Shown here: in pieces, positions 2,475-17,523 of the stretch
How the letters are laid out: each line of letters begins with the position of its first letter
How positions within the stretch are numbered: position 1 is the stretch's first letter
From: Gammaproteobacteria bacterium
GTDB lineage: Bacteria; Pseudomonadota; Gammaproteobacteria; HK1
DNA length: 17,523 nt
Direction of reading: 5' to 3'
NCBI GenBank assembly: GCA_020444775.1
Contig: JAGRHX010000744.1
Location: forward strand, 1-17,523
Program-made: the position numbers and the translations under genes
The notes under the pieces: generated by a model
Database searches by the model: none
The model's input: the letters and a program-made list of their open reading frames with translations, nothing else
Told to the model about the DNA's origin: nothing

Positions 2475-2635
2475 CGCCGGCGGTCAGCCAGCTGGCGCCG
2501 GCGGTGAGGGGGCACCGGGTCTCTCAGGATCGAGGTGATCTGGTTGCTGGTTTCGATGTCGTAGCGTAGGGCCTGCTTGAACCGCTCAACGTCGCGGGCA
2601 AGCCCTGGGTGCAGAATCCAGAAGATCAGGCGCAT
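2465..2635 (-). CDS. small basic hypothetical protein, 56 aa, last gene of the late operon
   Basis: The start ATG at 2635 overlaps the upstream stop (TGATG), and GGAGGG at 2642-2647 lies six bases upstream, so the short gene is well supported even though its frame is open much further. The protein begins with a short hydrophobic stretch (MRLIFWILHPGL), continues with an amphipathic helix (ARDVERFKQALRYDIETSNQITSIL) and ends in a very basic tail (HRRRQLADRRRQP). The hydrophobic part is too short to be a confident membrane span. It sits directly after a one-span membrane protein, so a lysis-associated accessory role is possible but unproven. Its end overlaps the convergent + strand gene by 10 bases. 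Confidence 0.55.
   Translation of the reverse strand: MRLIFWILHPGLARDVERFKQALRYDIETSNQITSILRDPVPPHRRRQLADRRRQP
2469..2489. terminator. small hairpin at the convergent gene junction, possible bidirectional terminator
   Basis: GGCTGAC (2469-2475) and GTCAGCC (2483-2489) are perfect reverse complements around a 7-base loop (GCCGGCG). The hairpin covers the TGA of the + gene (2472-2474) and lies inside the end of the - strand gene whose stop is at 2465-2467. There is no run of T on either side, so it is not a textbook intrinsic terminator. The 9-base direct repeat GCCGGCGGT at 2476 and 2497 is partly explained by the repeated RRRQ residues of the - strand protein. Confidence 0.3.
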
Positions 2636-2910
2636 CAGTCGCCCTCCCCATTCCCTCGGTTCCGGGCGCACATCATAAGCTGACGGAGCAGGAGCAATTC
2701 TTGGAGCACCTCCGACAGCCTTGTTGCCATCTCGAGCTTGGCCGCCGCCGCCTCCGTTTGGGCCTTTGTGTTCTCTCGCAGCAGGTCGCGGAAGAGCTTT
2801 TCGCGGACAATATCCCTCGCCCACAGCGCTGCCACTGCGACCATCATCAGGCCGATCAGCACCGCGGCTTCCGGGCCCAGCCTGTCGAGTAGCGCGTTCA
2901 ATTCCTGCAT
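2635..2910 (-). CDS. one-span membrane protein, 91 aa, candidate holin or spanin-like lysis protein
   Basis: The ATG at 2910 is chosen because GAGGA at 2918-2922 is seven bases upstream; the in-frame upstream ATG at 2964 would overlap the previous gene by more. The protein has a short N-terminal helix (MQELNALLDRLG), one membrane span at about residues 12-30 (EAAVLIGLMMVAVAALW), then a charged amphipathic helix with coiled-coil character at about 33-80 (REKLFRDLL ... KAQTEAAAAKLEMATRLSEVLQELLLLRQL). An N-terminal span followed by a coiled helix is seen in i-spanins (Rz) and in some small phage holins. It lies after the tail spike, where podoviruses often keep lysis genes. No endolysin is visible next to it, so the lysis role is inferred from topology and position. 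Confidence 0.6.
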   Translation of the reverse strand: MQELNALLDRLGPEAAVLIGLMMVAVAALWARDIVREKLFRDLLRENTKAQTEAAAAKLEMATRLSEVLQELLLLRQLMMCARNRGNGEGD

Positions 2911-2926
2911 CCATCCGTCCTCACCC

Positions 2927-3142
2927 TCAGCGTGGCGACTGGCCGGCGCCGGACGCTGCGGCATCGGCTGCGTTGCGCTCCTCGAGCGCCCTGGCGATGC
3001 GATGGAGCTCGAGCACGGCGCTCGCCAACAGCATCTCTATCCGGGCCCCCTTGTTGGCGCTGGCGCGCGGTCGACGCTGAGACGCGATCGCCGTGGCTTC
3101 TTCGATGCGCTCGTCTCGCGCCTCAGGTGGTTCAGCTGGCAT
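2927..3142 (-). CDS. small charged helical hypothetical protein, 71 aa
   Basis: The start ATG at 3142 overlaps the tail-spike stop (TGATG); an AGGGG at 3150-3154 lies seven bases upstream. A GTG three bases earlier (3145) is an alternative start. The protein is one charged helix: EARDERIEEATAIASQRRPRASANKGARIEMLLASAVLELHRIARALEERNAADAAASGAG. No signal peptide or membrane span is seen. Its place between the tail spike and a membrane protein fits a small late accessory protein or an unrecognised lysis or packaging factor. No family was recognised. Confidence 0.55.
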   Translation of the reverse strand: MPAEPPEARDERIEEATAIASQRRPRASANKGARIEMLLASAVLELHRIARALEERNAADAAASGAGQSPR

Positions 3143-5007
3143 CACTCATCCCCTATGACGGCCACCCATCCAACGTACACGGGATTCGCGGCGGTTGCGC
3201 TTGCACCAATGGAGATCCGTCCATTGGCCATTTGGAATGAGAAAGGCATCGACACGATGACCGAACCGTCCGATAGCTTCGTTTCTGTACGTGTTGGAAC
3301 GAGGGTCAGCACTGGGCGCAGATCGTCGTTGCCATTCCAGCTTGACCCATGGCACAGAAAGACGGATTCATCGTCCGGGTTGTAGATACGGGCCAGTGCC
3401 AAATACCGGCGCCCGGCCTCAAACGTGGAGACATTGTAGTAGAAACCCCAGCCCCCAGAGGCCGAGATACTCACCCATGGCCTGGCCACGATCACCGGTT
3501 GAGCCGAAGCGTCAGAGGTGAAGCCGCTGGCAAGCGTCAGCCCAGTGTCGCTCGCGCGCGCGGTTACCTTTCGCCATTCCCCGTTGTAGTAGAGGTAGTC
3601 CCCCACCGTGACCTCGGGATCGAAGTTCGTCCCGGATCCGGTAACCGCGGTGCCGGTGCTGGAAAAGGTGCCCGTTACCGTTCGATTTTGACTTGTATGG
3701 AAAGGTGCGGCCTCCGTAGCGGTGCAATTGGTCGTTCCCCATCCACTGATATCGAACGCGCCAGCGTTGGTGGAGAACGAACCAGGCACCAGGTTGTTGT
3801 ACGCCTGTAGCGTCAAAAAGCCCGGCCCAGAAACTTCCAGCGCACTGTCACCGGTACGGCCACGAACGGCGAACATCCTTGTCAAACGCCCACCGTCGGT
3901 GGTCGTTGGGCCGCTACGATCCGCAAGGGTCTCTGATCCTGACCAGGCTAGCGCTTGTGCGGTGGTGACGCCGGCGACGACCTGCGCCGCAGTATTGTCC
4001 GCGGTCGTTTCTCTGCCGTCGTAGCGCGCAGACAAAAAGAGCTCGTCTCCAGCGGCAGCCGTGAACTGATATCGTTCACCAGCCACGCCGAGAGAACGTA
4101 GCGGAGAAGGAATCATTGCGGCATCAGGGGCAAAGAGCGCATTGGCGGCGTGGATGTTTCGCAACCGACCCCACAAGGAACCCGCGCTTATCAAAGTGCC
4201 AGCATATATATCCTCCACCGTCCAATTGATCGCGTCGGGGTGCACGTAGATATTGGTGCTTGCCCCGCCAACGTGACTGATGGTTGGCCCTTGTCCCGTG
4301 ATTACGGCCTCTACTCTCTCGAACTGGGAGTCACGGATGACCGTGTGTCCCTTAATGTATATCTCTCCTTTTTCGGCGTTGTCAGCCTCGAACTTGCAAT
4401 GAGAAAACCAGACATCCATTGCGTCGACATACAGCAGCTGACTGCCATCGGATGCCCCATTGCATGCGAGTCGCGTGAACGAGACCGAGTCGCTATCGAT
4501 CAATCGTAGGTAGTTGTAAACGCCGCCATCGGCGCTCGGGTGGACCTGGATATCACGCATCCACCAGCTGTGGCAGTCTCTCAGGTCCAAAGCGTAAGTG
4601 GTCGCATTGTTGTTGTTTCGAAAGTGCACATGATCGAGGGAGAACCGCGTCGTCAGCGTCCCGGGGGAGTCCACCCCGGTTGTTTTCAACGCAGGAAAAT
4701 CTCCAGTGGCCCGCAGCTGGCAGCCGCCGAAGTGCTGCGACCATCCGGTTATGGAAACATTGCTCGCGGCGTACAGAGGCTCATCGAGCTCGATAACGTT
4801 GTTGATGGCCGCGTTTTTCCAGTTTATCCAGAGCGTTCCATCAAGACGGGCTGCTTGGTCGTCTATTGCGGCCTGGATCTGCGCACCTGGGGTCGCGCCG
4901 TCATAATTGCCGAAGATTGGTATCAGTGTGCCAGAGCGGTCGGCGTTCCCTCCGTCGTCGAAATCCACCCAGCCTCGATGCGTTTTCGATCCGAATGTTG
5001 CAGCCAT
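3142..5007 (-). CDS. tail fibre/tail spike protein with right-handed beta-helix, 621 aa
   Basis: This would be the receptor-binding or surface-degrading tail protein. The start is ATG at 5007, with AGGAGA at 5013-5018 five bases upstream; the frame is open to 5172 but that 55-residue part lacks a ribosome binding site and overlaps the preceding gene. Residues 1-40 are a likely virion-attachment segment. About 80-300 show short strand repeats with Asn, Gly and Asp turns (for example FSLDHVHFRNNNNATTYALDLRDCHSWWMRDIQV), typical of pectate-lyase-like beta-helices. About 305-400 is beta-rich, and 410-621 looks like a carbohydrate-binding-type module split by a 65-residue insert (443-507, VTGSGTNFDPEVTVGDYLYYNGEWRKVTA). 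Catalytic residues cannot be assigned. The local base composition is lower in GC than that of the neighbouring structural genes. Confidence 0.82.
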   Translation of the reverse strand: MAATFGSKTHRGWVDFDDGGNADRSGTLIPIFGNYDGATPGAQIQAAIDDQAARLDGTLWINWKNAAINNVIELDEPLYAASNVSITGWSQHFGGCQLRATGDFPALKTTGVDSPGTLTTRFSLDHVHFRNNNNATTYALDLRDCHSWWMRDIQVHPSADGGVYNYLRLIDSDSVSFTRLACNGASDGSQLLYVDAMDVWFSHCKFEADNAEKGEIYIKGHTVIRDSQFERVEAVITGQGPTISHVGGASTNIYVHPDAINWTVEDIYAGTLISAGSLWGRLRNIHAANALFAPDAAMIPSPLRSLGVAGERYQFTAAAGDELFLSARYDGRETTADNTAAQVVAGVTTAQALAWSGSETLADRSGPTTTDGGRLTRMFAVRGRTGDSALEVSGPGFLTLQAYNNLVPGSFSTNAGAFDISGWGTTNCTATEAAPFHTSQNRTVTGTFSSTGTAVTGSGTNFDPEVTVGDYLYYNGEWRKVTARASDTGLTLASGFTSDASAQPVIVARPWVSISASGGWGFYYNVSTFEAGRRYLALARIYNPDDESVFLCHGSSWNGNDDLRPVLTLVPTRTETKLSDGSVIVSMPFSFQMANGRISIGASATAANPVYVGWVAVIGDE

Positions 5008-5032
5008 TGCTATCTCCTGAGGGTGGGTCGAG

Positions 5033-5539
5033 TTAGATACTCGAAACCAAAGCCGTGAGCGCGTCGGCTCCGGCGTTCGTGATAGAGGCGATCCGGGCGT
5101 AGCGCCAGGCGCCAGTGCGTTGAGCTGTAGCCGGGGTGCTGGTGGTCGGCGCCAAAGCGTCCGAGGCGCCAACCGTCACGCCGTCAAGCGACCACTGCAC
5201 GCTCATTGCCGGCGTGCCGCCGCCGGTCGTGGTGTCGATGCCAGATACGAGGATCGCGTCCGTCGTGACCCCGCTGACGCCGCCCGTGATGATCTTGCCT
5301 CCGGAGGTGTAGATGGCGGTGGGGCTATTGAACCAGGTCCAAGACCCCTCGTGGGCTAAGACATGGTGTCGAGTCGGCCAGAATGGAATTACCCCGCCTC
5401 CAGAATCCTTGACGGCAATCCTCCCGCCGGCCGCCTGCTCTTCGACATTGGCGACGCCCCATAGCGGGACCCAGGTCAACAGGTTCGAGACATCGGCGTC
5501 GATGTAGCTGGCGTTGATCGTGATCTCGCGCTGCACCAT
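5033..5539 (-). CDS. phage structural or tail-associated protein, 168 aa, paralogue of the next upstream gene's product
   Basis: The start ATG at 5539 lies one base after the upstream stop, with GGTGAG at 5548-5553. The first 90 residues are beta-rich with Gly and Trp (LLTWVPLWGVANVEEQAAGG ... EGSWTWFN). The last 75 residues share a clear pattern with the 104-aa neighbour: 'VQWSLDGVTVGASDALA' against 'VEWSLDRVTVASTDALS', 'WRYARIASITNAGADALTALVSSI' against 'YRYARINVTGNAGGNELNALAVSI'. These 'slDgxTW ... R YaRi' modules are usual in beta-sandwich domains of phage virion proteins. A role in tail-fibre attachment, decoration or adhesion is inferred from position between the giant internal protein and the spike. 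Confidence 0.7.
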   Translation of the reverse strand: MVQREITINASYIDADVSNLLTWVPLWGVANVEEQAAGGRIAVKDSGGGVIPFWPTRHHVLAHEGSWTWFNSPTAIYTSGGKIITGGVSGVTTDAILVSGIDTTTGGGTPAMSVQWSLDGVTVGASDALAPTTSTPATAQRTGAWRYARIASITNAGADALTALVSSI

Positions 5540-5860: not shown

Positions 5861-5866
5861 TCTCCT
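5861..5866 (-). promoter_or_regulatory. Shine-Dalgarno fused to the giant gene's stop codon
   Basis: On the - strand AGGAGA (5866-5861) begins inside the giant gene's TAG stop at 5867-5865 and stands five bases before the ATG at 5855. A ribosome ending the 2285-aa chain would be directly over this site, giving strong termination-reinitiation coupling with the small beta-sandwich protein. Confidence 0.6.
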
Positions 5867-8800
5867 ATGGCACCGGCACGTCAGCGACGGCCTGAGCGTT
5901 GTCCTGGAGCAGCTGGCGCAGCTCCTCGATGCGTTTCTCTTTGGCGCGCTCACCCATGCGCGCGTCTCGGTTCACCGAGCGCAGCTGGCCACGGAGCTGG
6001 CTTTGCTCGCGGCGCAGATCGCCGATCTTGTACTGGCGCTCCCGGTCCAGGTCAACCTCGCGGATCTTGGTGCCGGTCAACGTGTCGAGCAGCGCGCGCG
6101 GCAGGTTCTGCTTGCGCCCGTAGTAGTCCTCGCCGGTGTACTCACCCAGCAGCGGCACATCGAGCGTCTCGCCGGTCGATCCCGCGATCCCGTTCATGAC
6201 CTTGTTGAAGCTGTACGAGCCCGGCAGCACCGGCGTGTTCGGCAGCAGCTGGCGGGCGAGCCACGCGGCGCGGGCCTCGGCCTCGTTGCCCTTGTCCTTG
6301 GGGCCCACGACCTCGCGGCCGGTGAACGGGTCCTTGTTCATGAACAGACCCGAGAACAGCGACAACACCGGGCCGGACGGCATGAACGGAGCCGGCACGT
6401 TCAGACCGCCGGCCTGGTTCTGCAGGTCGAACAGATCCCCCAGTGGCATGCGTCGAGACAGATCCAGAAACAGCGGGTTGCCGGACTCGGAGTCGGTCGG
6501 CAGACGCATGCTCTTGGGGATCCCCGGGAACGCGGTACCCCCCTCCATGTAGCCTGGCAGCAGCCCGCGCTCGATGTCCTGACGCTCGCCGGCCTCATCG
6601 CCGAACAGCTGCTCGTAGGCGTACCAGTTCATGCCGCCGAACAAGGCAGCCCACTTGGCGAACCGCCATGGCGTATGCACCCATGCGTAGGCCATCGCCG
6701 GGATCGCTTTATAGGTGTAGCTGAAGAACGGCGCCGCGGTGGCCTTGATCGCGCGCACACCCTCTGGCACGTCGGCGTAGTTGAAGAACCAGCGCTCGGC
6801 CTCGTCCACGGCCTTCTGCGGGTCGGCGCCCTTGGCCCGTTGGTCCATGTAGACGAGCATCTTGAAATACTGGTCCTCGGCCTCGTACATGCGGCCCATC
6901 TTGTCGCGGTAGGCCTTGGCGCCCGAGTAGCGGTACGCGTAGTCGACACCCTTGGTGAACCAGCCGGCCGATGCCGTCTCGATGTCCCGGAACTGGTCGA
7001 GCTCCGGCAGCATCTGACGGATCTCCTGACCGTAGAACTCGGTGCCGAACAGACCCGCCTCCTGCGCCTCGCGGTACAGCTTGCCCTTGCGCATGTATTC
7101 CTTCGCCGCGCGGTAGTAGGCCTTGCCGTCCCAGGGGCTGATCCCGGCCAGATCGGCCATGATCACGTTGGAGACGATGTTGTTGCCGTGGACCACCGGG
7201 TTAAGGCTGGTCTTCCCCTCTTTCCACAGCGCCAGGGCCTTCAGGTACGCCCGCGTGAGCGTCGCTCGGGCCGAGCCCGGGTCCTCGGGCCGGATCACCT
7301 TCAGGTCGTCCCAGACGGCGTCTGGGACCCACTTGCCGGCGAGCTTGCCGTAGCGCTGCACACCGGTGCCCGGGATCTGCGTCGCCGGGACCTGGTGGTA
7401 GCCGCCGCCGGGGTCGCTGTTCTTGGCGATCCCGCGCTCGACCATGTCGGCGAAGAGCTCGCCCATGGCGATGTCCCTGGACGCTTCCATGTAGCCGCGG
7501 GTGTAGCGGTACACGGCGTCGCGGATCTCGCCCATCTTCTCGCGCTCGGCCTTGGTCCAGTCGCGCCACACCCGGATCTCGGTGTCACGGCCCAGATCGC
7601 GCACCTCGGCATCGTCCATGCCGCGCAACTGCCAGCCGAGCGCCTTGTACTGCGGCCAATCGCCGGCCTTGATCGGCTCGAACGTCCCACGCCCCCGCAG
7701 CCGATCGCCCTGGATCCCCTGGCGTATCGTGGTGCGCAGCGCGCGGTCGAACGGATTGTTCAGGATGTGCTTGGTGTAGTACCGCGCGAGGTACCGGCCA
7801 GCGCCGGACAGACGCTCGTGGGACTCAGGGGCCAGCATGCCCAGCTCGACCAGGCGCTTGCCCTGCGCCTTGTGCGCGACCTGCATCATGGTGGCGATGT
7901 CGGTCACCACCTGCGGCGGCACGGTGCCGACCTTCATCTCGCCTTCGATGTAGTCGGAGACGACCTTGCGCAGGTCGGGGTCTAGTTCTCGGCCGTGCTT
8001 GGCGACGTTCGCGGCCTGCTCGGCGGCGATCTGTTGCTTGGCTCGCATCTGACGAACCAACCGCCGGAACTCCGGCGGGGTGTCGTTGGCCAGCTTGACC
8101 TTGCTCAGGATTCGCGTGGTGAAGGCGGCGACGGGCTGCCATACGCGACGATCAGCGGCTTCCTGGTAGGCCTCGCTGATCTTGCTCAGTGGACGTTCGC
8201 GGGCGAAGCGCGGTCCATCCTCAGACCGGCGGGCCTCACGCAGACGATCGAGACGAGAGGCGGCACGCTGCAAGTGCCGCGGGTTGATCAGTGCTTCGGC
8301 TTGTGCAGCAGATCCAGCAGCCGCTGCTGTTTCGCCTGCAGTTCCGGACTCGGCTGGCGCTGCTCCTGCGCGATCTGCTCGAGCAGCGTCTGCGCCTCGC
8401 TCCAGCCGGGCGAGCTCCGGTCCGTAGCCGGCCTTTTCGAGGATTTGTCGGTATCGCCCTTCATTGAACAGCCCCGCGAAGTCTGGCACCGAGTTGATAA
8501 TGTCGCTCGTCAGCGCCTGATCTTCAATGATCTGACGCACACTTCGGGTCTCGCCGGCTGCTTCGGCCATTTCGTACGCGGCCTTCGCCCAGCTCCAGAC
8601 CGTTTCCTGCACCTCGGCGGGGGTCCACTGCTCGCCGGTCATCTTGGTAAGCTCGCGCGCCGCCTGGCGCACCCTGGCGGACATCGCCACGTAGCCGGGG
8701 CCCTTACCCGGATCCGTGCCGGTCGGGGTCAGCGACCCGCTGAACAGCGTCTGCTCGACCAGCGCATAGTTGGCCATCCACGCATCGTTCGTGACGTGCT

Positions 8801-11800
8801 CGAACTCGGCGTTCAGGTTCCGGCGGAACGAATCGACCTTGGGCCCGGACAGCACCACGTTGGCTGGGTCCTCGGCCTGCAGCGCCCGCACGGTGTTGTT
8901 GATCCACGACGGCAGGATTGACTCCTCACCCTTGCCGCCCTGCACGCTTTCGGCCAGCACCTTGATGATCGCCGCCCGGTCGGTCGGGCGCTGATACTGC
9001 GTCCAGGTCACCCAGGTCCGCACCGCGTTGGTCAGGTTGGATTCGACGCTGGTCTGCGGGCTGAGCGCAGCCAGCAGCGCGGAGAACCGCGGTGCGTCAC
9101 GCTCACCGAACACCTCGAGCAGAGCCCGGGCGCTTTCGCGGTACCAGCCACGCTTGGCCGAGCCGGCCAGCGCCACCGATGCCATCTCGGTGCCCGACGG
9201 CAGGCGCTTGAACACCTCGACCACCTTGGCCGCGGTGCCTCGGTTCAGTTTCTGCCGCTCGGGATCGGTCAGGTAGCGGTCGACCTGCTTGTAGCCGGGC
9301 ACGTCCTCTCGGAGCTGGGACACGCGATCGCGCGGGCGCGCAAACAACGGGCGCTGACGCCCGACGCCCTGATCTACGGGCCGGGCCTCTATCTCTTCAT
9401 CTGGCGTGATCGCATCGTCCCAGAAGCCCACCTCACCCTTGCGCGCATTGGGTGGCGTGTCCTCGAACCGCTGACGACGGGCCTTCAGTCGAGAGCCGAG
9501 ATCATATTGAGGGTCCGGAGACAGTCGCTGCGCGATCAGCCGCAGGGATTGTCCGCTTTCGCTGATGATGTCCTGGAACATTCCGGTGCGAATGAGCTGC
9601 GCCAGCTTCTGCTTGTAGTCGTACCCGTTGAACTTTTCATCCGGAACACCGGTCAGGAACAGCTGATTGGACCCGGTGGCCCGCGCGAAGTCCCGGACGT
9701 AGGCGACCATGCGCGCGTCAGACAATCCCTCGGCATCTTCGAGACGCACGCCCATGAGACCTGAGACGCCCTCTCGGGTTTGCCCGATGACGATCAGGTC
9801 CTCGTCCACATCATTGCGCACGGTTCGCCAGACGCGCGCCAGGGACACCGGGCCAGTGATGGAGGTCGAGCCCAGGACCGGGTGCGGGAGCTCGGCGGGC
9901 CCCGTCAGATCGTATGGGGTGCTCGGCAGGTCGTCTGGCAGGTCGTGGACGGCGGCCAACCCATTGTCATCGATCGTGGCGTACCGACGGTGATTGATCA
10001 CGACGTGGCCGCGGAAGCCGGGAACCCGCTGCGCGATCGCTCGGGTCAACTGCTGATCCGCTTGGGACGGCGCAGGGTTGCCGGACGGGTGATTGTGGAC
10101 GAGGTAGTAGCCGTCAGCCCCGAGGGACTGCATGGACATATTGATGTCCGCTATGGCATCAGACGGTGCGCCTATGAACGCCTGCGCAGATCCTGGCAGC
10201 CGGCTGCTGACTGCTGTGTGCGCGGCGACCTCGTCCCCCCGCATGAAGACGTAGTGCAGGGTCTCGTAGCGCGGGTTGCGGTAGACCTGCGCGAGAGTTG
10301 CTAGGTCCTCCGACCCTCGGATCTGGGCGCCCTTGAGGCTGGCTCGTCCGGTTTCGGCGATCTCGGCGGGGATACGGGAACCAAATAGGGTGCCCGCCTT
10401 CCGCCGCACACCGAGGTCGGCAGGTCGTCCAGCTTGTCGGCCGGTGTCGGCGTCTGCTTGTCGTTGCTCATCGAACAAGGCCCCCTGATTCTCTGGCGCT
10501 GCACGGCGAGCATACAGCGGCCCACCGGCATCGGCACCACGGGCCTGTCCTCGCGCGTACCGTGGCACGCCATCCACACGCCCCTCGGTGTAGCGCCTCG
10601 AGTCGGCCACCAGCTGCCGGATCTCGGCCGGCGACATCTGCATATCCGGAAACAGAATACGAAACGCGTTTCGTATTTGAGTCAAGACACGGTCGAGAAA
10701 CCCCGGCGCGATCCCCGTCTCGGCTGCGTGGGCGATGTACTCCTCGGCGGCCTCGCGGCGCCCGGCCGGGGTGTTCAGGTCGAGCCCGTAGGTGCTGGCG
10801 ATCTCATCCAGGCTCGGGCCGTCGACCAGCCGGCCGGCGGCGTACTGCTGGTACACCTGGTCCAGCACCGGGTTGAGCCGGTCGCCGAGCAGCCCACGCA
10901 GACCATAGTGGCCGCTGACCTCGTGCAGCAGCTTGGCCTGCGCCTCCATGGTGGAGTTCAGGTTGCTGGCGACCAGGTAGACCGTGCCGTCGCGGGGATT
11001 GAGCGCCCCTTTGACCGACGGCTCCACGTCGAACGGCAGCTGGTCTGCCGTCTCGACGATCTGGATGTTTACCGCTCGTCCGAGTCCAGCTCGTGCGGGT
11101 TCAACGGCCGCCCGTACCGATTCAACGGTAGGACGTCCGCCGACTTGGCTGGCAATGGTCGGACCCGCCCCCGGCGCCTCGGGTGAATACCGCGGGCGCG
11201 CTGCTCGCGGGCCCACTGCTTGACCATCGTCCAGCGGTTGATCGGCTCCTCGTCGTCCATCCTGGCCTCCCTCGATGCGTACGTGCAGCGGCTCGGGTGA
11301 CGGCGGCGTGTAGGGGATCCCGTCCCCTGCATCACCGGTGGCGCCGAGCGCGGTCGTCCAGCTGGAGGAGGTTGGAGGTTGATCGATGGCAGCCGGCGCG
11401 TAATCGATGCCGCCCTCGTACCGCGGCGACAAAGCGCTCTGATACAGGTTCTCGACCGGGCCTGGGGCCAGCCGCTCGGGTGCTGGCGCTCCACGTGGAA
11501 CGGGGCCGGCGGCGGCCTGGTCAGGCAGCATGGCGCGATCGGCGGTGCTGGTCTGGGCGCGCGGGGTCGGCCGTGGTTGGGCAGGAGCCGCAGGTTCAGC
11601 AGCCGGTGCCGGGCGCGGGGCCTCGGCACCGCCGGTGATCGTCTGGGTCAGCGCATCGACCAGGCCCGGCGCTTGGGCCTCGGCGCCGGCGCGGTTGAGC
11701 TCGGAGTGGATCCGGTTGGGTTGCGCGGCCGGCTCGGCCCGTGAGCCGAACGCCCAGCCGAAGAAGGCGCTCAACAGCGCATCAGCCACCATCGACTTGG

Positions 11801-12722
11801 TATCGAACGGATCCTCAGCGAACTGCGCATTCTCTGGGCCCAAGGCCTCGGCCTCGAGCGCGCGCTGGCCGACGCCGGCCGGCACGTTCAGCCCGGCACC
11901 AGTCAGTGCGCGAGTCAGTATTCCACCCGGCACCGCGGCTGGCAGCAGGCCTTCGGCCGTGTGCGATAGGTAGTTGGCCGCGCTCGCCGCCCCCACGTCC
12001 GCCGGGTCGACCCCTTGCTCGGTGAGCTGACGCGCCCGGTTCAGCGTGGTGGGCACCGAGTAGGCCTGCGAGGCACCGATCGCTGCCGGGGCACCTGCAG
12101 CGGCCCGACCCAGCTGCGTCGCGACCGCCTCACCGGTGCCGGCCCGCAGCGCAGTGTTCGCGGTCATCGCCGCACGGCCCATGTTCGCGGCGCGTGATCC
12201 GGACGTGGCGTACCCGCCGGCCAGGATCTGCGGGATCATGCCGCCCACGTAGCCGCCGGCGAACGCCATCTCATCACCCAGGCCGAACGTTTCGGTGTCC
12301 GGGTTCAGGGCCTGTGCTTCGGCGGCTCGCACCAGCGGGTCGACGGTGGACTCGAACGCCAGATCGCCGACCGAGGTATACGGCGCCGGGGGCTGGTAGT
12401 TGGGGTTCAGCTGGGCATTTGGATCCTCGGGAGTTTCCTGGCCGATCCCGAACTCGCCGATCTGCTCCATGATCTGGTCAGCGATCGTGCCGATGCCGCC
12501 GCCGAGCGCCATGGCCATCGACGCACCGGTGTCGAGGAACGACTTGGCTGCCCCGCGGCCTGCAGCGGCCCAGCCACCGACCTCGGGCTTGTACCCGATC
12601 GCCGCATTGAACTGGTCGCGATCGGCATCCGCGTAGTACCGCTGGTACATGGCATCGGCGATCTGCTGATCGCTGTACCCCTCGTACTGCGGATACCTGG
12701 CCCGGATCTCGGCAAGATTCAC
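5865..12722 (-). CDS. giant internal virion/ejection protein, 2285 aa, with zincin-like, RadC/JAMM, 'ALSPQ' and large-polyvalent-type domains
   Basis: It holds the position of T7 gp16 (end of the ejected-protein genes) and is probably injected with the DNA. Domains seen: 1-45, a 'YxxYSDxxIADAMYxRYY' entry motif common to giant phage proteins; 50-330, Ala/Gly-rich amphipathic helices; 330-540, Pro/Ala-rich linker; 540-715, metallopeptidase-like, with HEVSGH at 600-605 and EEYIAH at 660-665; 775-925, RadC/JAMM domain with HNHPSG at 876-881, S886 and D889; 1185-1330, a helical domain (LLAALSPQTSVESNL ... LSGPKVDSF ... TNDAWMANY); 1500-2200, a long helical region with NPVVHGNNIVSN (1841-1852) and ATAAPFFSYTYKAIP (1994-2008), like phage large-polyvalent-protein domains; 2220-2275, coiled coil. 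The start is GTG at 12722, overlapping the preceding stop (GTGA), with a weak GGGGG site upstream. No transglycosylase or RNA polymerase motif was found. Confidence 0.88.
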   Translation of the reverse strand: MNLAEIRARYPQYEGYSDQQIADAMYQRYYADADRDQFNAAIGYKPEVGGWAAAGRGAAKSFLDTGASMAMALGGGIGTIADQIMEQIGEFGIGQETPEDPNAQLNPNYQPPAPYTSVGDLAFESTVDPLVRAAEAQALNPDTETFGLGDEMAFAGGYVGGMIPQILAGGYATSGSRAANMGRAAMTANTALRAGTGEAVATQLGRAAAGAPAAIGASQAYSVPTTLNRARQLTEQGVDPADVGAASAANYLSHTAEGLLPAAVPGGILTRALTGAGLNVPAGVGQRALEAEALGPENAQFAEDPFDTKSMVADALLSAFFGWAFGSRAEPAAQPNRIHSELNRAGAEAQAPGLVDALTQTITGGAEAPRPAPAAEPAAPAQPRPTPRAQTSTADRAMLPDQAAAGPVPRGAPAPERLAPGPVENLYQSALSPRYEGGIDYAPAAIDQPPTSSSWTTALGATGDAGDGIPYTPPSPEPLHVRIEGGQDGRRGADQPLDDGQAVGPRAARPRYSPEAPGAGPTIASQVGGRPTVESVRAAVEPARAGLGRAVNIQIVETADQLPFDVEPSVKGALNPRDGTVYLVASNLNSTMEAQAKLLHEVSGHYGLRGLLGDRLNPVLDQVYQQYAAGRLVDGPSLDEIASTYGLDLNTPAGRREAAEEYIAHAAETGIAPGFLDRVLTQIRNAFRILFPDMQMSPAEIRQLVADSRRYTEGRVDGVPRYARGQARGADAGGPLYARRAAPENQGALFDEQRQADADTGRQAGRPADLGVRRKAGTLFGSRIPAEIAETGRASLKGAQIRGSEDLATLAQVYRNPRYETLHYVFMRGDEVAAHTAVSSRLPGSAQAFIGAPSDAIADINMSMQSLGADGYYLVHNHPSGNPAPSQADQQLTRAIAQRVPGFRGHVVINHRRYATIDDNGLAAVHDLPDDLPSTPYDLTGPAELPHPVLGSTSITGPVSLARVWRTVRNDVDEDLIVIGQTREGVSGLMGVRLEDAEGLSDARMVAYVRDFARATGSNQLFLTGVPDEKFNGYDYKQKLAQLIRTGMFQDIISESGQSLRLIAQRLSPDPQYDLGSRLKARRQRFEDTPPNARKGEVGFWDDAITPDEEIEARPVDQGVGRQRPLFARPRDRVSQLREDVPGYKQVDRYLTDPERQKLNRGTAAKVVEVFKRLPSGTEMASVALAGSAKRGWYRESARALLEVFGERDAPRFSALLAALSPQTSVESNLTNAVRTWVTWTQYQRPTDRAAIIKVLAESVQGGKGEESILPSWINNTVRALQAEDPANVVLSGPKVDSFRRNLNAEFEHVTNDAWMANYALVEQTLFSGSLTPTGTDPGKGPGYVAMSARVRQAARELTKMTGEQWTPAEVQETVWSWAKAAYEMAEAAGETRSVRQIIEDQALTSDIINSVPDFAGLFNEGRYRQILEKAGYGPELARLERGADAARADRAGAAPAESGTAGETAAAAGSAAQAEALINPRHLQRAASRLDRLREARRSEDGPRFARERPLSKISEAYQEAADRRVWQPVAAFTTRILSKVKLANDTPPEFRRLVRQMRAKQQIAAEQAANVAKHGRELDPDLRKVVSDYIEGEMKVGTVPPQVVTDIATMMQVAHKAQGKRLVELGMLAPESHERLSGAGRYLARYYTKHILNNPFDRALRTTIRQGIQGDRLRGRGTFEPIKAGDWPQYKALGWQLRGMDDAEVRDLGRDTEIRVWRDWTKAEREKMGEIRDAVYRYTRGYMEASRDIAMGELFADMVERGIAKNSDPGGGYHQVPATQIPGTGVQRYGKLAGKWVPDAVWDDLKVIRPEDPGSARATLTRAYLKALALWKEGKTSLNPVVHGNNIVSNVIMADLAGISPWDGKAYYRAAKEYMRKGKLYREAQEAGLFGTEFYGQEIRQMLPELDQFRDIETASAGWFTKGVDYAYRYSGAKAYRDKMGRMYEAEDQYFKMLVYMDQRAKGADPQKAVDEAERWFFNYADVPEGVRAIKATAAPFFSYTYKAIPAMAYAWVHTPWRFAKWAALFGGMNWYAYEQLFGDEAGERQDIERGLLPGYMEGGTAFPGIPKSMRLPTDSESGNPLFLDLSRRMPLGDLFDLQNQAGGLNVPAPFMPSGPVLSLFSGLFMNKDPFTGREVVGPKDKGNEAEARAAWLARQLLPNTPVLPGSYSFNKVMNGIAGSTGETLDVPLLGEYTGEDYYGRKQNLPRALLDTLTGTKIREVDLDRERQYKIGDLRREQSQLRGQLRSVNRDARMGERAKEKRIEELRQLLQDNAQAVADVPVP
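10656..10677. repeat. perfect 22-bp palindrome inside the giant gene
   Basis: AATACGAAACG is followed at once by its exact reverse complement CGTTTCGTATT, with no spacer and no mismatch. It lies in the coding sequence for residues 683-689 (I-R-N-A-F-R-I), just after the metallopeptidase-like domain, and uses ATA for Ile and CGA for Arg, codons that are uncommon in this GC-rich stretch. A dimeric DNA-binding protein site is one possible role; no second copy was seen in the window. Confidence 0.85.
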
Positions 12723-13687
12723 TTCGGTGCCCCCAGTAGGTCACGGATGCCGAGCGGATCATCGGTCGTGGGGGGGAGCACCATGACACCTTTGCCGGCA
12801 GAGCCCGCCGGGGTTGCTGGAGCTGACGCGCCACCTGATGCGCGCGCGGCGTTGTGCAGCATGTTGCCCTTTGCGTCGAGCTCGAACACGACTTCACCGC
12901 TCGACGTGTCGATCCAGCGGGTGCTCATGCCCATCGGATCCTGCACTCGCTCAATCGTGTCACCGTAGGCCAGCACCAGAGCCGTCTTTGGGTCCACCCC
13001 CATCGCGGTCAACTCTTGATACTGCTTCATAGCGTTCGTGGGCTTGTGTGCGCTCGGGCCGGGCGGCAGCGTGCCGGCAATCTCAGTTCGAGTCTTGTCG
13101 CGGCTGCCGATGCTGTTGGCCGCTGACGCGTTGCGCTGTCCGGTCAAGGCTCGAATGGCAGCCATGGATGCAGCAGCCATGTCGTTGCCCAGGTCCATCT
13201 CACCGGTGGTTTGGTTCAGCACCGCCCCCGACGCGTTCGCCTGGAACGGCTCGTACGGCTTGCGGCCACTGGCAGCCAGCCACGCATTGGCCTGTGTCGG
13301 GTCGTCCTTGTAGATGCGCGCGGCGTGCGCCTGCTGGCCTTGCTCGAGCAGTCCACCCAACCCCCCAACCAGCTGCTGGAAGTTCCCCCCGTCGCTGGCG
13401 CGCAGCAGGTTTGCATAGCTCGCGACCATCTCTGGCGTCAGCTCACCGGCGTGGTTCGCCGCCATCGCATCGCCGAGCCAGTCCTGTGCGTTGGCCAGCG
13501 CCGCGTTCTGGGTGTACAGCCGTGCTGCTTCCTCTTGCGCCTTGCGGGCCTGCATGAGGCGTTGTCGCCCGGTCGCACCGGCAGTCAGCGCCTGGTCGTA
13601 CGCGTCCTGACGGATCGATCCGAGGTTGCCGAAGGTGCCGACGGCCTTACTGATACCGGCGTTCAGGTTGCGCAGACCGTAGTCCAT
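12719..13687 (-). CDS. internal virion (core/ejection) protein, 322 aa, T7 gp15-position
   Basis: The start ATG at 13687 has GTGAGG at 13693-13698, five bases upstream. The protein is mostly helical and rich in Ala, Gln and Gly, beginning MDYGLRNLNAGISKAVGTFG, then long helices (GRQRLMQARKAQEEAARLYTQ; EMVASYANLLRASDGG), ending in an Ala/Pro/Gly linker and GVMVLPPTTDDPLGIRDLLG. It lies between the gp14-like protein and the giant, as gp15 lies in T7, and its stop overlaps the GTG of the giant gene. There is no detectable sequence motif, so the assignment to the ejection core rests on order and composition. It is much shorter than T7 gp15 (747 aa); the giant next to it may have taken over part of its role. 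Confidence 0.65.
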   Translation of the reverse strand: MDYGLRNLNAGISKAVGTFGNLGSIRQDAYDQALTAGATGRQRLMQARKAQEEAARLYTQNAALANAQDWLGDAMAANHAGELTPEMVASYANLLRASDGGNFQQLVGGLGGLLEQGQQAHAARIYKDDPTQANAWLAASGRKPYEPFQANASGAVLNQTTGEMDLGNDMAAASMAAIRALTGQRNASAANSIGSRDKTRTEIAGTLPPGPSAHKPTNAMKQYQELTAMGVDPKTALVLAYGDTIERVQDPMGMSTRWIDTSSGEVVFELDAKGNMLHNAARASGGASAPATPAGSAGKGVMVLPPTTDDPLGIRDLLGAPK

Positions 13688-13694
13688 CGATACC

Positions 13695-14510
13695 TCACTT
13701 CAGCGGCTGAATCGGAACGCCGCTGTACATCGGGTTCTGGGCAAAAAACGCGCCCGCACCGGGCTTCGTCAGTTGCATGCGCGAAGCGGGGATCCCCGAG
13801 TAGTTCGGCGACGGCGAGAAGAACGCTGAACCGCCAGAGCCCTGACCGCCACCGAAGTTCATGCCAGCCAGCGCCGGGCCCGCAGCTGTCAGCGCAGCCC
13901 CGGCACCCGAGGTCCATGGATTCACCTGCCCGGCCTTGGCGATCTCGAGCCCGCTGATCGCGTTGCTATTGGCGCCTGCGGTGCCCAGCCGGCCAAGCGC
14001 ATGCGCGAAGTCAGAGGAGGCGAAGCCCTCCTGCTGGGCGTTGTACGCAGGGGCGTCCAGGCGGGCCAGCAGGCTGGCCAAGTACGTGCCGCGCTCCAGC
14101 TGTCCGGCCTTCGCGCGTGCCGCGGACTTCAGGTAGTCATCCGACACGTTCCCCGCCACATCCAGATCGGACCGTGGGGCCAACGTGTCCGCCTGCTCAA
14201 GCGCCCGACTGTACGTTTCGGTCAGCTGCTGCTCGATGTTCTCGGTGCGCTGTTCACGCTTCTGCGGCTGGTATTCCTGGGTGTGCTCACGCACTGCCCG
14301 GTCCGCCTCATCCTGCAGCTGCTGCTGACGTACCATCTCCGCGATCGATGCCCGATTCTGACGTTTGATGGCGTCGTTCTCGGCCTTGTTCTGCATCAGC
14401 ACGCCGGCGCCGGTCGACAGCAGTGATGCGATCGTACCCAGCGAAATTGTGCTGCCTGTAGCGCTGCCTGCAGCTGCACCGAGGGCCGCTATTTCAGGTC
14501 CAAGACACAT
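13695..14510 (-). CDS. T7 gp14-like internal virion protein, 271 aa
   Basis: The start ATG at 14510 overlaps the previous stop (TGATG), with GGAGG at 14519-14523 eight bases upstream. The N-terminus MCLGPEIAALGAAAGSATGS, then a hydrophobic segment, then long polar helices (KAENDAIKRQNRASIAEMVRQQQLQDEADRAVREHTQEYQ) recall T7 gp14, which starts MCWAAAIPIAISGAQ and forms the ejection pore in the outer membrane. The C-terminal ~90 residues are Gly/Ser/Pro-rich (GGGQGSGGSAFFSPSPNYSG) and end with GAFFAQNPMYSGVPIQPLK, which contains a repeated 'P.YSGIP/VP' motif (residues about 232-267). A membrane-pore role in DNA ejection is inferred from this resemblance and the gene order. Confidence 0.66.
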   Translation of the reverse strand: MCLGPEIAALGAAAGSATGSTISLGTIASLLSTGAGVLMQNKAENDAIKRQNRASIAEMVRQQQLQDEADRAVREHTQEYQPQKREQRTENIEQQLTETYSRALEQADTLAPRSDLDVAGNVSDDYLKSAARAKAGQLERGTYLASLLARLDAPAYNAQQEGFASSDFAHALGRLGTAGANSNAISGLEIAKAGQVNPWTSGAGAALTAAGPALAGMNFGGGQGSGGSAFFSPSPNYSGIPASRMQLTKPGAGAFFAQNPMYSGVPIQPLK

Positions 14511-15403
14511 CAGACGATCCTCCCCTTGTAGGTATCGCCCTGGCCCGCGGCCGGCGTGGTGAAGGTCGAGAACTCATCGCCCTCGAGCGCCGACAGCGGC
14601 ACCGAGTTGTACGCCTTCGCGAACTCACGGCGGATCTGGCCAGCCGATTTCCGCTGCTGTAATCCTTGTGCGGCCACGGCTGCCATCTCATCACCCAACC
14701 CACCCAGTTCGCTACCCTGTCCCACCTGGTTGAGCCAACTATTGAGGTTCAGCCACCATCCGTTCTGCAGGTTGTCAGCGTTTGCGGTATCCAGGTTCGT
14801 GACAAGATTCGGCGTAGTGCCTATCGGGTTGCTCGTCCCGCTCTGTGACACCGCTGGCAATTGGGATTGCCAGAAATCCAAGTAAGACTTGTCGAGTTCT
14901 GGCGCCTGAATCTGGTTCCGTTCTCGTATGACATCTCGTTGAGCAAGCCTGTAGAGGTCGCCTCGGTCCAACCCAGTGCGCCCAGCGTCGAACGCTGCCT
15001 GGCGTTGCGCGACGGACAAGGCATCCTCAAACGCTGCCGCCAGCTGTGGATAGAACGTCGAAGTCAGGGCATTGCCGTGAACCGCGTCAGCCTCATTCCC
15101 CACCCACGTGGTGAACTCATATGGTTTGGCCAGGTTGTTGGCTGGATCGTTCCGGCGATCGATGTCCATCAACGCGAGCATGTGAGCACTGGCATTGACA
15201 GGGGCATCTCCGCTGACCCAGTCAGCCAAGAAGGAGCGGCGACCGTTTGTGTTCTGATTGAACACACCGAGGCCAGCAATCTGCTTGGCGTAGGACTCTG
15301 CGGGGCTGTCCATCAACGACCCCTGAAACGTCAGGTTGTGCCACCATCCCTGACCGTATGGCTGCCCAGTCAGTGGATTCGTGGCCGTCTCGATGTAGGC
15401 CAT
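14510..15403 (-). CDS. internal virion or tail-associated hypothetical protein, 297 aa
   Basis: The start ATG at 15403 overlaps the upstream stop (TAATG), with GAGGA at 15411-15415 seven bases upstream. The N-terminus MAYIETATNPLTGQPYGQGWWHNLTFQGSLMDSP is followed by alternating helical and polar segments; the middle has a helix pair (AAFEDALSVAQRQAAFDAGRTGLDRGDLYRLAQRDVIRERNQ), and the end contains FSTFTTPAAGQGDTYKGRIV. No family was recognised. Its place among the ejection-protein genes and its matching operon coupling suggest it belongs to the core or proximal-tail set. It is not obviously membrane-bound. Confidence 0.6.
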   Translation of the reverse strand: MAYIETATNPLTGQPYGQGWWHNLTFQGSLMDSPAESYAKQIAGLGVFNQNTNGRRSFLADWVSGDAPVNASAHMLALMDIDRRNDPANNLAKPYEFTTWVGNEADAVHGNALTSTFYPQLAAAFEDALSVAQRQAAFDAGRTGLDRGDLYRLAQRDVIRERNQIQAPELDKSYLDFWQSQLPAVSQSGTSNPIGTTPNLVTNLDTANADNLQNGWWLNLNSWLNQVGQGSELGGLGDEMAAVAAQGLQQRKSAGQIRREFAKAYNSVPLSALEGDEFSTFTTPAAGQGDTYKGRIV

Positions 15404-16059
15404 TACCCGATCCTCGTGGACCTGCCCGAATACCCGGACCCACCGGTTGCCGGGATGTAGGTGCCGAACTTGTCCTCGTCAGCAAGGATTCGACGGGCAT
15501 CACCTTGGCCGGCGGCCGCGGCTCCCTGATGTTGAGCCAGCGCGACATTGGCCAACAGGTCGCCGAGCGACGCCAGGTTGTTCTGGTTCTGAGCCAGCTG
15601 CAGGTTGTTCTGCAGCCCGCTCTGGGCCAGCCGCGCGGCGGTTGTCGCATCCAGACCGCCATAGGCTTGGTTCAGCAGGTTCGACTTCGCCGTCTGATCC
15701 TGCCGACGCAGGTTGGCCGCCTGCTCTTGAGCGTACTGGTTCGCCCGCAGCACGTTTTCGTCGTAGTTCTGGCCGAGCTGCTGTGCGCTGTCCGCCTGAG
15801 CGCTGCCGCCAGCCAGACCGGACCGAGCCAAGGCGAACTTGAGCTCACGGTCGGCCCGCTGCTTGTCCTCGGACAGTCTCATCATGTTCCGCGACAGCAC
15901 GTCATTGGCGTACTGCGCGTATGCCTGCTCACGAGCCCCTGGCGCGAACTGCTGTTCGATCGCGGCCGTGGCCTGCGCGATTTGTGCCTGTCGTCGAGCC
16001 TCCTGCTCACGAGCAAATGCGGCCGGATCGCCGCCACCTCCACCGCCACCGAAGCACAT
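15403..16059 (-). CDS. Gly/Ala/Gln-rich helical virion protein, 218 aa, T7 gp14-region
   Basis: The start ATG at 16059 lies four bases past the GNAT gene stop, with only a GGGG tract upstream, so its initiation probably depends on coupling. The protein starts MCFGGGGGGG and then forms long Ala/Gln-rich helices (AFAREQEARRQAQIAQATAAIEQQFAPGAREQAYAQYANDVLSRNM; RANQYAQEQAANLRRQDQTAKSNLLNQAY), with a Gly/Ser-rich end (GGSGYSGRSTRIG). The Met-Cys start followed by a Gly-rich patch and helices echoes the gp14-like protein two genes on. It is probably a core or ejection component; no enzymatic motif was found. Confidence 0.62.
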   Translation of the reverse strand: MCFGGGGGGGDPAAFAREQEARRQAQIAQATAAIEQQFAPGAREQAYAQYANDVLSRNMMRLSEDKQRADRELKFALARSGLAGGSAQADSAQQLGQNYDENVLRANQYAQEQAANLRRQDQTAKSNLLNQAYGGLDATTAARLAQSGLQNNLQLAQNQNNLASLGDLLANVALAQHQGAAAAGQGDARRILADEDKFGTYIPATGGSGYSGRSTRIG

Positions 16060-16063
16060 GGTG

Positions 16064-16558
16064 CTACCCCGCTACCTTGGAATAGAGCCAGACCGGCTCA
16101 CGATTGACCCCATAGCACTCGAATTTGTGCTCGAGCCTCAACCCGCAGCTCGTGTAGAGCTTGACCGCGCGCTCGTCATCACCCACCGCGGACCAGCATT
16201 CGACTCGATGGATCCCGGCGATCTGCGCCTTGCCCTGCGGGTCCATGATCATGCGGATCGCCTTGCGCATCGCGCGAACGACTTCACGCTTGATGTCTGC
16301 GTCCAGGTGCTCACGCGGCACGTGATGCAGGAACGTCGAGGCGATCCCAGGCCGGCCGCCCATGGCGAACCCACCGATCATCACCGGCTCGTTACCCTGA
16401 ATGGCTACCAGCGCCACCCCGGTTGTCGAGGCAATCTGCTGCGCGCGCTCGTAATACTTCCAGCCCTGGCCCAGGAACACGTCCAGTTCGCGATGACAGA
16501 CCGGGTCCAGGTGGGCTAGCACCTTGCACGCATCGGCGTAATCCATCGGTCGGATCAC
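16064..16558 (-). CDS. GNAT-like acetyltransferase in the T7 gp13 position, 164 aa
   Basis: The start GTG at 16558 is preferred: it overlaps the upstream stop (GTGA), and its product begins MIRPMDYADACKVLAHLD, a usual GNAT first strand and helix. The frame is open further upstream but only inside the nozzle gene. The GNAT pattern is strongest at the end: WSAVGDDERAVKLYTSCGLRLEHKFECYGVNREPVWLYSKV (about residues 122-162), the 'A..LY...G......' acetyl-CoA-fold signature. The middle (REHLDADIKREVVRAMRKAIRMIMD) gives the helix of the fold. The usual R/Q-x-x-G-x-G/A acetyl-CoA loop is not clear, so the enzyme may be degenerate. T7 gp13 lies at the same place between gp12 and gp14 and is needed for virion assembly. 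Role inferred from order. Confidence 0.72.
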   Translation of the reverse strand: MIRPMDYADACKVLAHLDPVCHRELDVFLGQGWKYYERAQQIASTTGVALVAIQGNEPVMIGGFAMGGRPGIASTFLHHVPREHLDADIKREVVRAMRKAIRMIMDPQGKAQIAGIHRVECWSAVGDDERAVKLYTSCGLRLEHKFECYGVNREPVWLYSKVAG

Positions 16559-17523
16559 ATGGCCCCCAGCACGTCGTAGTAGATTTCGACCAACTCCAGC
16601 TCCCACGCCTCGTTTGCCGAGTGCGTGAACTTCGGGCTGACCTCGGTTGCGTTCAGCTCGTAGTTGATCATGTCGCCAGCGCGGGAATCACCGTCGAGCG
16701 TGACGTTGGGCCCACGCTTGCTCGGGTCCCGCGCGTCGTAGCCCATGCTGAAGACGCCGGAGCCCTGCTGGACGATGTCGGCGCCATGGATGTGCTTGCG
16801 CTGACCCGGCTTCTTGAAGTCCTGATAGGTCATCTCGAACACGACATCGATCGCAGTGCCGTTGTCGGTGTACGCGGCCGGGTCCACCTGATAGACGCTA
16901 TCGCCCGAGCGCAGGTAGAGCTTACCGGCGAGCTCGGCGATGTCGGAGATCCGGAACGGGTAGGTGTAGTAGGACCACGCGCTGACCTTCGCGGTGCGCG
17001 AGAACGTGTAAACGAACACCAACGAGTCGTTCTCGCTAATCCGTTCGAGCACACACCAATACTGGCCACCCCCTTGGTAGAAGGCCGAGTGCACGCGGAT
17101 GTTCGTCGGATCGGCGATCTCTGGAACGACGAGACTCTCGATCGGCGAGCCGACGTCGATGTCGGCGAGGTTGTTGGTCAATGACAGGGTCGACAGTGAC
17201 TCGAAGCCGGCCTGGCCGAGGTAGTACAGATCCCCGGACACGTTGTCACCGGACTGGCTGAACGTGGTGCCAGTGTTTTCGACGACCTCACTGATCGACA
17301 TCAACGACGGGTCAGGGTCGACGTTCCACGTCTGGACGCTGTCCGACATGGCGACCGCGAGCAGTTCGTTGTAGAGCCCCAGCATCCGCGGCTGCGGGTC
17401 GCCCGGTGACCGGGTGCCCGTTGGCAGGAAGCCGGCATCACTGGCGGTCGTCCAGTCCCATGGCCCGGTGGCGGTAGCCGTGAACGGCACAGTGTCTGTG
17501 TCGAGCGCGAATATCTTCGACGC
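16555..17523 (-). CDS. tail nozzle/stopper (T7 gp12- or P22 gp10-like) protein, C-terminal part; 5' end outside window
   Basis: The frame is open to the right edge (the codons before 17490 give ASKIFALDTDT), so the gene begins beyond the window; 322 residues are visible. It is beta-rich throughout, with repeating blocks such as PRMLGLYNELLAVAMSDSVQTW, QYWCVLERISENDSLVFVYTFS, KVSAWSYYTYPFRISDIAELAGKLYLRSGDSVYQVD. These are typical of the propeller-like nozzle or stabilisation proteins of short-tailed phages, where a Tyr/Trp-rich 'WS.Y ... I.......G.LYlrsGdsvY..D' repeat is usual. It is directly upstream of the GNAT gene, whose GTG overlaps its stop. It would form the distal end of the tail tube that seals packaged DNA. 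Exact family needs a profile search. Confidence 0.75.
   Translation of the reverse strand, partial: ASKIFALDTDTVPFTATATGPWDWTTASDAGFLPTGTRSPGDPQPRMLGLYNELLAVAMSDSVQTWNVDPDPSLMSISEVVENTGTTFSQSGDNVSGDLYYLGQAGFESLSTLSLTNNLADIDVGSPIESLVVPEIADPTNIRVHSAFYQGGGQYWCVLERISENDSLVFVYTFSRTAKVSAWSYYTYPFRISDIAELAGKLYLRSGDSVYQVDPAAYTDNGTAIDVVFEMTYQDFKKPGQRKHIHGADIVQQGSGVFSMGYDARDPSKRGPNVTLDGDSRAGDMINYELNATEVSPKFTHSANEAWELELVEIYYDVLGAM

Follow-up and report, generated by a model that had tools for sequence, protein, structure and literature searches.

A polyvalent protein of a podovirus-like virion operon whose C-terminal module appears related to the ends of N4-type virion RNA polymerases

Giant phage proteins and the present locus

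N4-type virion RNA polymerases (vRNAPs) are ejected proteins. For the N4 enzyme, gp50 of the Schitoviridae, the sections of Iyer et al. (2017, PMC5512222) cited here give the C-terminal 1,400 aa as required for encapsidation, and the cited part of PMC12633501 describes the C-terminal domain (CTD) as a new fold with an undefined role in early transcription that inhibits transcription, DNA binding or unwinding being suggested. Polyvalent proteins, in turn, are large chains that join at least two enzymatic or effector domains of different kinds. We describe a 2285-aa protein in which RadC and DUF7178 score above their Pfam cut-offs and accompany a zincin-type module; as a polyvalent protein it belongs to a known kind, but its cargo set is unusual. 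It resembles the polyvalent proteins in the cited sections of PMC5512222 in its unrelated enzyme modules, a zincin included, its giant chain and its place beside late virion genes, and differs from them in carrying RadC and DUF7178, the latter not discussed in those sections. With N4 gp50 it would share a giant ejected chain, a homologous C-terminal part and, upstream of that part, a metallopeptidase-type motif. However, gp50 has 3500 residues and an HExxH motif, whereas the present protein has HExxxH, lacks the RNA polymerase module and carries zincin, RadC and DUF7178 as cargo.

The protein is encoded by a single open frame at positions 5865-12722, minus strand, with a GTG start; the window is the whole stretch analysed, 17,523 nucleotides of a gammaproteobacterial contig. 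The frame is beyond chance, since 2285 codons free of stops have a relative (P0002, below) along most of their length, and further homologues were found. The unbroken frame had been recorded in a first-pass annotation of this DNA, which did not give its strand. It overlaps by 4 bases the upstream gene (12719..13687, minus strand, 322 aa), which from its position may encode a tunnel (gp15-like) protein; its product has no family match and no match among viral contigs. Further upstream on the minus strand lie a possible internal virion protein (gp14-like; 13695..14510) with a weak match to phrog_15746 'internal virion protein' (E 0.019), two ORFs of the virion operon (14510..15403 and 16064..16606), a neighbour with a conserved place (15403..16059) and a probable tail protein truncated by the window end (16555..17523), so labelled from position. 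This last product also matches phrog_5107 'amidase' (E 5.6e-6), a label that may be a misannotation. Downstream of the giant frame, small proteins are encoded, along with a 676-aa protein that resembles a tail fibre or spike (3142..5172, minus strand; phrog_1980 tail fiber, E 0.014, weak).

We judged this gene order, mainly from position, to be that of a podovirus virion operon. The giant gene thus lies among late virion genes by gene order and conserved neighbours, the family matches of those neighbours being weak. Across 28 loci that encode the C-terminal module described below (L027-L054), homologues were present for the tail protein (42-46%) in 13, for 15403..16059 in 13 and, upstream of the C-module protein, for 13695..14510 in 12, counts that are not independent because the values of L034 and L035 are identical. 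In 10 of the 11 loci L027-L037 the C-module protein stands behind homologues of the tail protein, 15403..16059 and 13695..14510, in that order; the one locus that has none of the three, L030, is a 6.8-kb piece.

Other features of the window were noted in passing. An SSB gene followed by an MT-A70 methyltransferase gene lies at 819-1919 on the plus strand, opposite to the giant ORF, and the methyltransferase possibly provides a separate protection, from restriction. Near the tail genes, a 109-aa ORF with a hydrophobic stretch (2635-2964, minus strand) is holin-like by eye only and has no family match. PADLOC detected nothing, and no phage record near-identical to the window was found.

A constant C-terminal module behind variable cargo

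The main new result concerns the C-terminal module (residues 1550-2285, about 740 aa; 5868..8075, minus strand), which is constant in the homologues and mostly helical in the structure model, as the long C-terminal helical region of the first-pass annotation had suggested. Homologue sets comprised the best 120 of 131 and the best 120 of 165 matches, the C-module being the query of the second search. In 131 of 235 homologues the module aligned over more than 500 residues, at the C-terminus behind variable cargo, and was followed by a median of 13 and a maximum of 173 residues. Its core (residues 1829-2028; 6639..7238, minus strand) aligned in hhalign with the C-termini of N4-type vRNAPs at E 2.5e-7 over 200 columns, against 0.12-0.46 for the controls. 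In hmmsearch the C-module HMM matched 7 of 14 vRNAP tails, N4 itself not being among those matched. On this profile evidence the core is homologous to the vRNAP C-termini, and since those enzymes are ejected, the homology supports an ejection reading on an N4-like frame; the delivery frame seems to be common to both. The claim of a polyvalent protein in an ejection-protein position, first made from the sequence, thereby gains a second support. The protein itself, to judge by its sequence, is not a vRNAP: there was no Pfam match to an RNA polymerase domain, and the best BLAST hit to gp50 had E 0.26. In a search made mostly at abstract level, we found no publication that connects the ends of N4-type vRNAPs with the constant C-module.

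Two further observations touch this module. Its profile matches a 57-residue part of PDB 9k3a, a 'Tail protein' of 1114 aa (chain A 719-775; E 4e-4), for which no publication naming the entry was found, and a partial genome record of 248 kb from Enterobacter phage SonariX (L106) holds an N4-type vRNAP-like end in a 'hypothetical protein'. Most structural alignments of the C-module by VIA-align, pore-forming toxins included, cover its last helices only (model 674-736); these were dismissed as simple helical hairpins.

At the other end, the N-terminal region (residues 1-340; 11703..12722, minus strand) matches phrog_10691 at residues 2-54 (E 6.5e-8). Roughly its first 44-54 residues find matches at the N-termini of giant proteins from cultured phages, namely Ruegeria phage 45A6 (E 1e-6; 3912 aa), Vibrio phage FGH (vB_ValP_FGH; 6e-4; 2634 aa), Pelagibacter phage HTVC106P (3e-3) and Thalassomonas phage BA3 (7e-3; 2631 aa). 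In 45A6, FGH and BA3 a series of smaller genes in the same orientation precedes the giant gene, and the giant proteins share with ours the N-terminal element and, besides, have an HExxH motif and LPD38 near the C-terminus. They differ in cargo, which is a methyltransferase or a methyltransferase, a helicase and a GNAT, and none of the three matched the DUF7178, zincin or RadC HMMs. The C-module HMM matched 45A6 (E 0.0066) and neither BA3 nor FGH. Between LPD38-bearing ends and the C-module there is a weak profile link (E 1.2e-4 over 64 columns); between LPD38 ends and vRNAP ends there is none (0.32).

The cargo between these ends is exchanged. The closest relative among the matches listed is the metagenomic P0002 (2086 aa; 49% identity over 68% of the query). 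It repeats the order N-terminal region, RadC, middle region, DUF7178, C-module but has neither the zincin nor any HExxH, a Pro/Ala-rich stretch standing in that place. In the present protein, the Pro/Ala-rich hinge that had been noticed at first reading lies at about residues 361-420 (11463..11642, minus strand), with 25-28 P+A per 50 residues, and the region of residues 930-1120 (9363..9935, minus strand) was matched among the homologues only in P0002 (34%). The N-terminal region is also common to P0124, partly to P0152, and to P0122, where it (32%) and the C-module (55%) enclose ParB, a zincin and a zeta-toxin. The four loci of L027-L037 scanned for cargo likewise differ from one another. 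C-module proteins also occur on long Burkholderiales contigs of Polynucleobacter, Parasutterella and Quisquiliibacterium (L048, L049 and L052), perhaps prophages, with LPD5/LPD1, ART/ParB and LPD5/ParB/LPD1/RadC as their respective cargo.

A census with four HMMs was made on 325 proteins and the ORFs of L001-L046, a set in which some proteins may be present twice. At least one HMM matched 372 sequences, RadC and the C-module together matched 24, and all four matched the 2285-aa protein only. This 'only one' holds for these HMMs, since P0008, although it matches fewer than three of the four, combines the C-module with an HExxH and with Pfam hits to RadC and DUF7178. The exact combination, singled out at first as noteworthy, was thus found once by the HMMs, yet its uniqueness is rejected on account of the comparable set of P0008; it is one assortment drawn from a reshuffled pool of modules.

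The zincin-type, RadC and DUF7178 modules

The zincin-type metallopeptidase module, assigned on sequence evidence (residues 535-725; 10548..11120, minus strand), contains HEVSGH at 600-605 and a further Glu, E661; H600 is conserved in 66, E601 in 67, H605 in 69 and E661 in 67 of 69 aligned rows, so that the motif pair proposed earlier stands. HEXXXH proteins form one set of polyvalent metallopeptidases in the cited sections of PMC5512222. Related segments are present in phage proteins (best E 5e-11). A profile search of the module against the PDB found no metallopeptidase.

The RadC-type JAB module (residues 775-930; 9933..10400, minus strand) holds the JAMM motif HxHPxG....S..D, here HNHPSGNPAPSQAD, at residues 876-889, where the RadC/JAMM motif had been predicted. 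H876, H878, S886 and D889 are invariant among the 32 rows that have a residue there, out of 37 in the alignment. Pfam RadC scores 31.7 bits against a cut-off of 22.1, and a seven-row profile matches the solved RadC domain PDB 2qlc (E 1.2e-7). E820 is invariant in the seven-row alignment, yet outside the 90% positions of the larger one, and is a candidate for the catalytic JAMM Glu. Section 33 of PMC5512222 confines RadC to polyvalent proteins of conjugative elements and section 16 adds prophages; in L028, L036 and L052 a C-module protein with RadC adjoins a tail-protein homologue, so RadC is present in phage-type proteins too.

The helical DUF7178 module (residues 1120-1500; 8223..9365, minus strand) corresponds to the separate ALSPQ domain first delimited at 1185-1330; its conserved extent is wider, about 1170-1400 (Pfam DUF7178, 36.3 bits against a cut-off of 27). 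Its structure model is confident (pLDDT 84.3, pTM 0.82), and the best VIA-align matches are 8-oxoguanine DNA glycosylases. K1295 and D1313, each 98% conserved in 111 rows, are 18 residues apart, which is the spacing of the catalytic Lys and Asp of OGG2 at the positions given in the cited part of PMC5069365; they are a candidate pair, likened by spacing, and an [ST]PQ motif lies upstream as in OGG2. For DUF7178, a helix-hairpin-helix fold like that of DNA glycosylases, with a Lys/Asp site, is therefore probable. It differs from OGG2 in that hhalign found no sequence-profile relation between the two, and for this reason we do not file it in the HhH-GPD superfamily. Its profile had no useful match among PDB profiles, nor did Foldseek return one from the PDB for the DUF7178 or the C-module model; among viral models, the DUF7178-like folds that Foldseek found all belong to phage proteins that are unnamed or uncharacterised, one at E<=0.001. 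No OGG2 family member was found in six genomes with C-module loci. Our literature search, mostly at abstract level, found no paper naming DUF7178 and none tying it to DNA glycosylases. DUF7178 also occurs in P0261, P0262, P0270 and P0300, which are small (295-323 aa) and encoded on 39-50 kb contigs, so the domain may work alone.

Proposed delivery of the cargo and alternative explanations

We consider it probable that this phage polyvalent protein is cargo on an ejection frame, with a C-module for packaging and ejection and modules directed at nucleic acid. The protein would be made late and packaged in the capsid by means of the C-module and the N-terminal element, and the chain would be expelled late, like N4 gp50, through a channel built by the products of the genes upstream, while the cargo between the two ends would be swapped among related phages. 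Its own zincin may then cut the chain at the flexible hinges and free the parts, a step to which we give slightly less than an even chance. Once in the new host, the RadC and DUF7178 modules may soon act on nucleic acid, for which the chances seem evenly balanced; the effect could be to disarm the host, to protect phage DNA or to repair it. A broader joint proposal is tentative and, as a whole, rather doubtful: the C-module would be a general packaging and ejection module of polyvalent proteins (perhaps LPD38 proteins) and N4-type vRNAPs, which would make the N4 gp50 CTD a delivery part, and DUF7178 would be an enzyme of the DNA-glycosylase type that is delivered by the virion and works on bases in host or incoming phage DNA.

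Several observations could be read otherwise. The operon position, after internal-virion-like and before tail-fibre-like genes, would also suit a purely structural ejection protein like T7 gp16 whose enzyme-like modules are worn-down remnants. This seems very unlikely, as the catalytic motifs, intact here, recur in the other family members and the modules are exchanged whole between relatives. Moreover, the likeness to T7 gp16 is one of gene position only: against T7 gp13-gp17 the best BLAST E values were 0.30 for the giant protein and 0.056 for its neighbours, the C-module HMM had no match, and the Pfam search of the giant protein showed no transglycosylase domain. On these searches we reject homology to gp16; the place assigned to the protein at first holds as gene order, and the further claim that it replaces gp16 is unsupported. 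The first-pass annotation had also counted deubiquitinase-like domains among those of phage polyvalent proteins and inferred that the protein disarms the host early. One could imagine direct disarming, with the zincin cutting host proteins and RadC acting on proteins. The cited sections of PMC5512222 do name host targets among the possible ones of polyvalent metallopeptidases, but they favour a processing role for zincins and argue that RadC-type JAB domains lack a groove for the ubiquitin tail and act on nucleic acids or nucleotides, on which ground we reject a deubiquitinase. The absence of HExxH from P0002 also weighs against direct host disarming, which we regard as distinctly improbable.

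The effects of the N4 CTD on transcription, and the DNA binding or unwinding suggested for it, would fit a C-module that regulates the cargo or binds DNA instead of serving packaging and ejection. That the module stays constant while the cargo changes, and that the end of gp50 is described as an encapsidation requirement, make this explanation unlikely. A stronger competitor, short of an even chance and still to be taken seriously, is that DUF7178 is an unrelated helical module, structural or binding, that moves among polyvalent proteins, and not a DNA-glycosylase-type enzyme.

The proposed ejection frame bears on an open problem, namely how giant phage proteins are selected for packaging and for entry into the cell. 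Because N4-type vRNAPs share the constant C-module with proteins of swappable cargo, a packaging role can be put to a direct test in N4 and E. coli K-12. Furthermore, should DUF7178 prove to be an enzyme of the glycosylase type, this common domain, so far without a known function, would gain a testable chemistry, and phages would deliver a base-processing activity together with their DNA.
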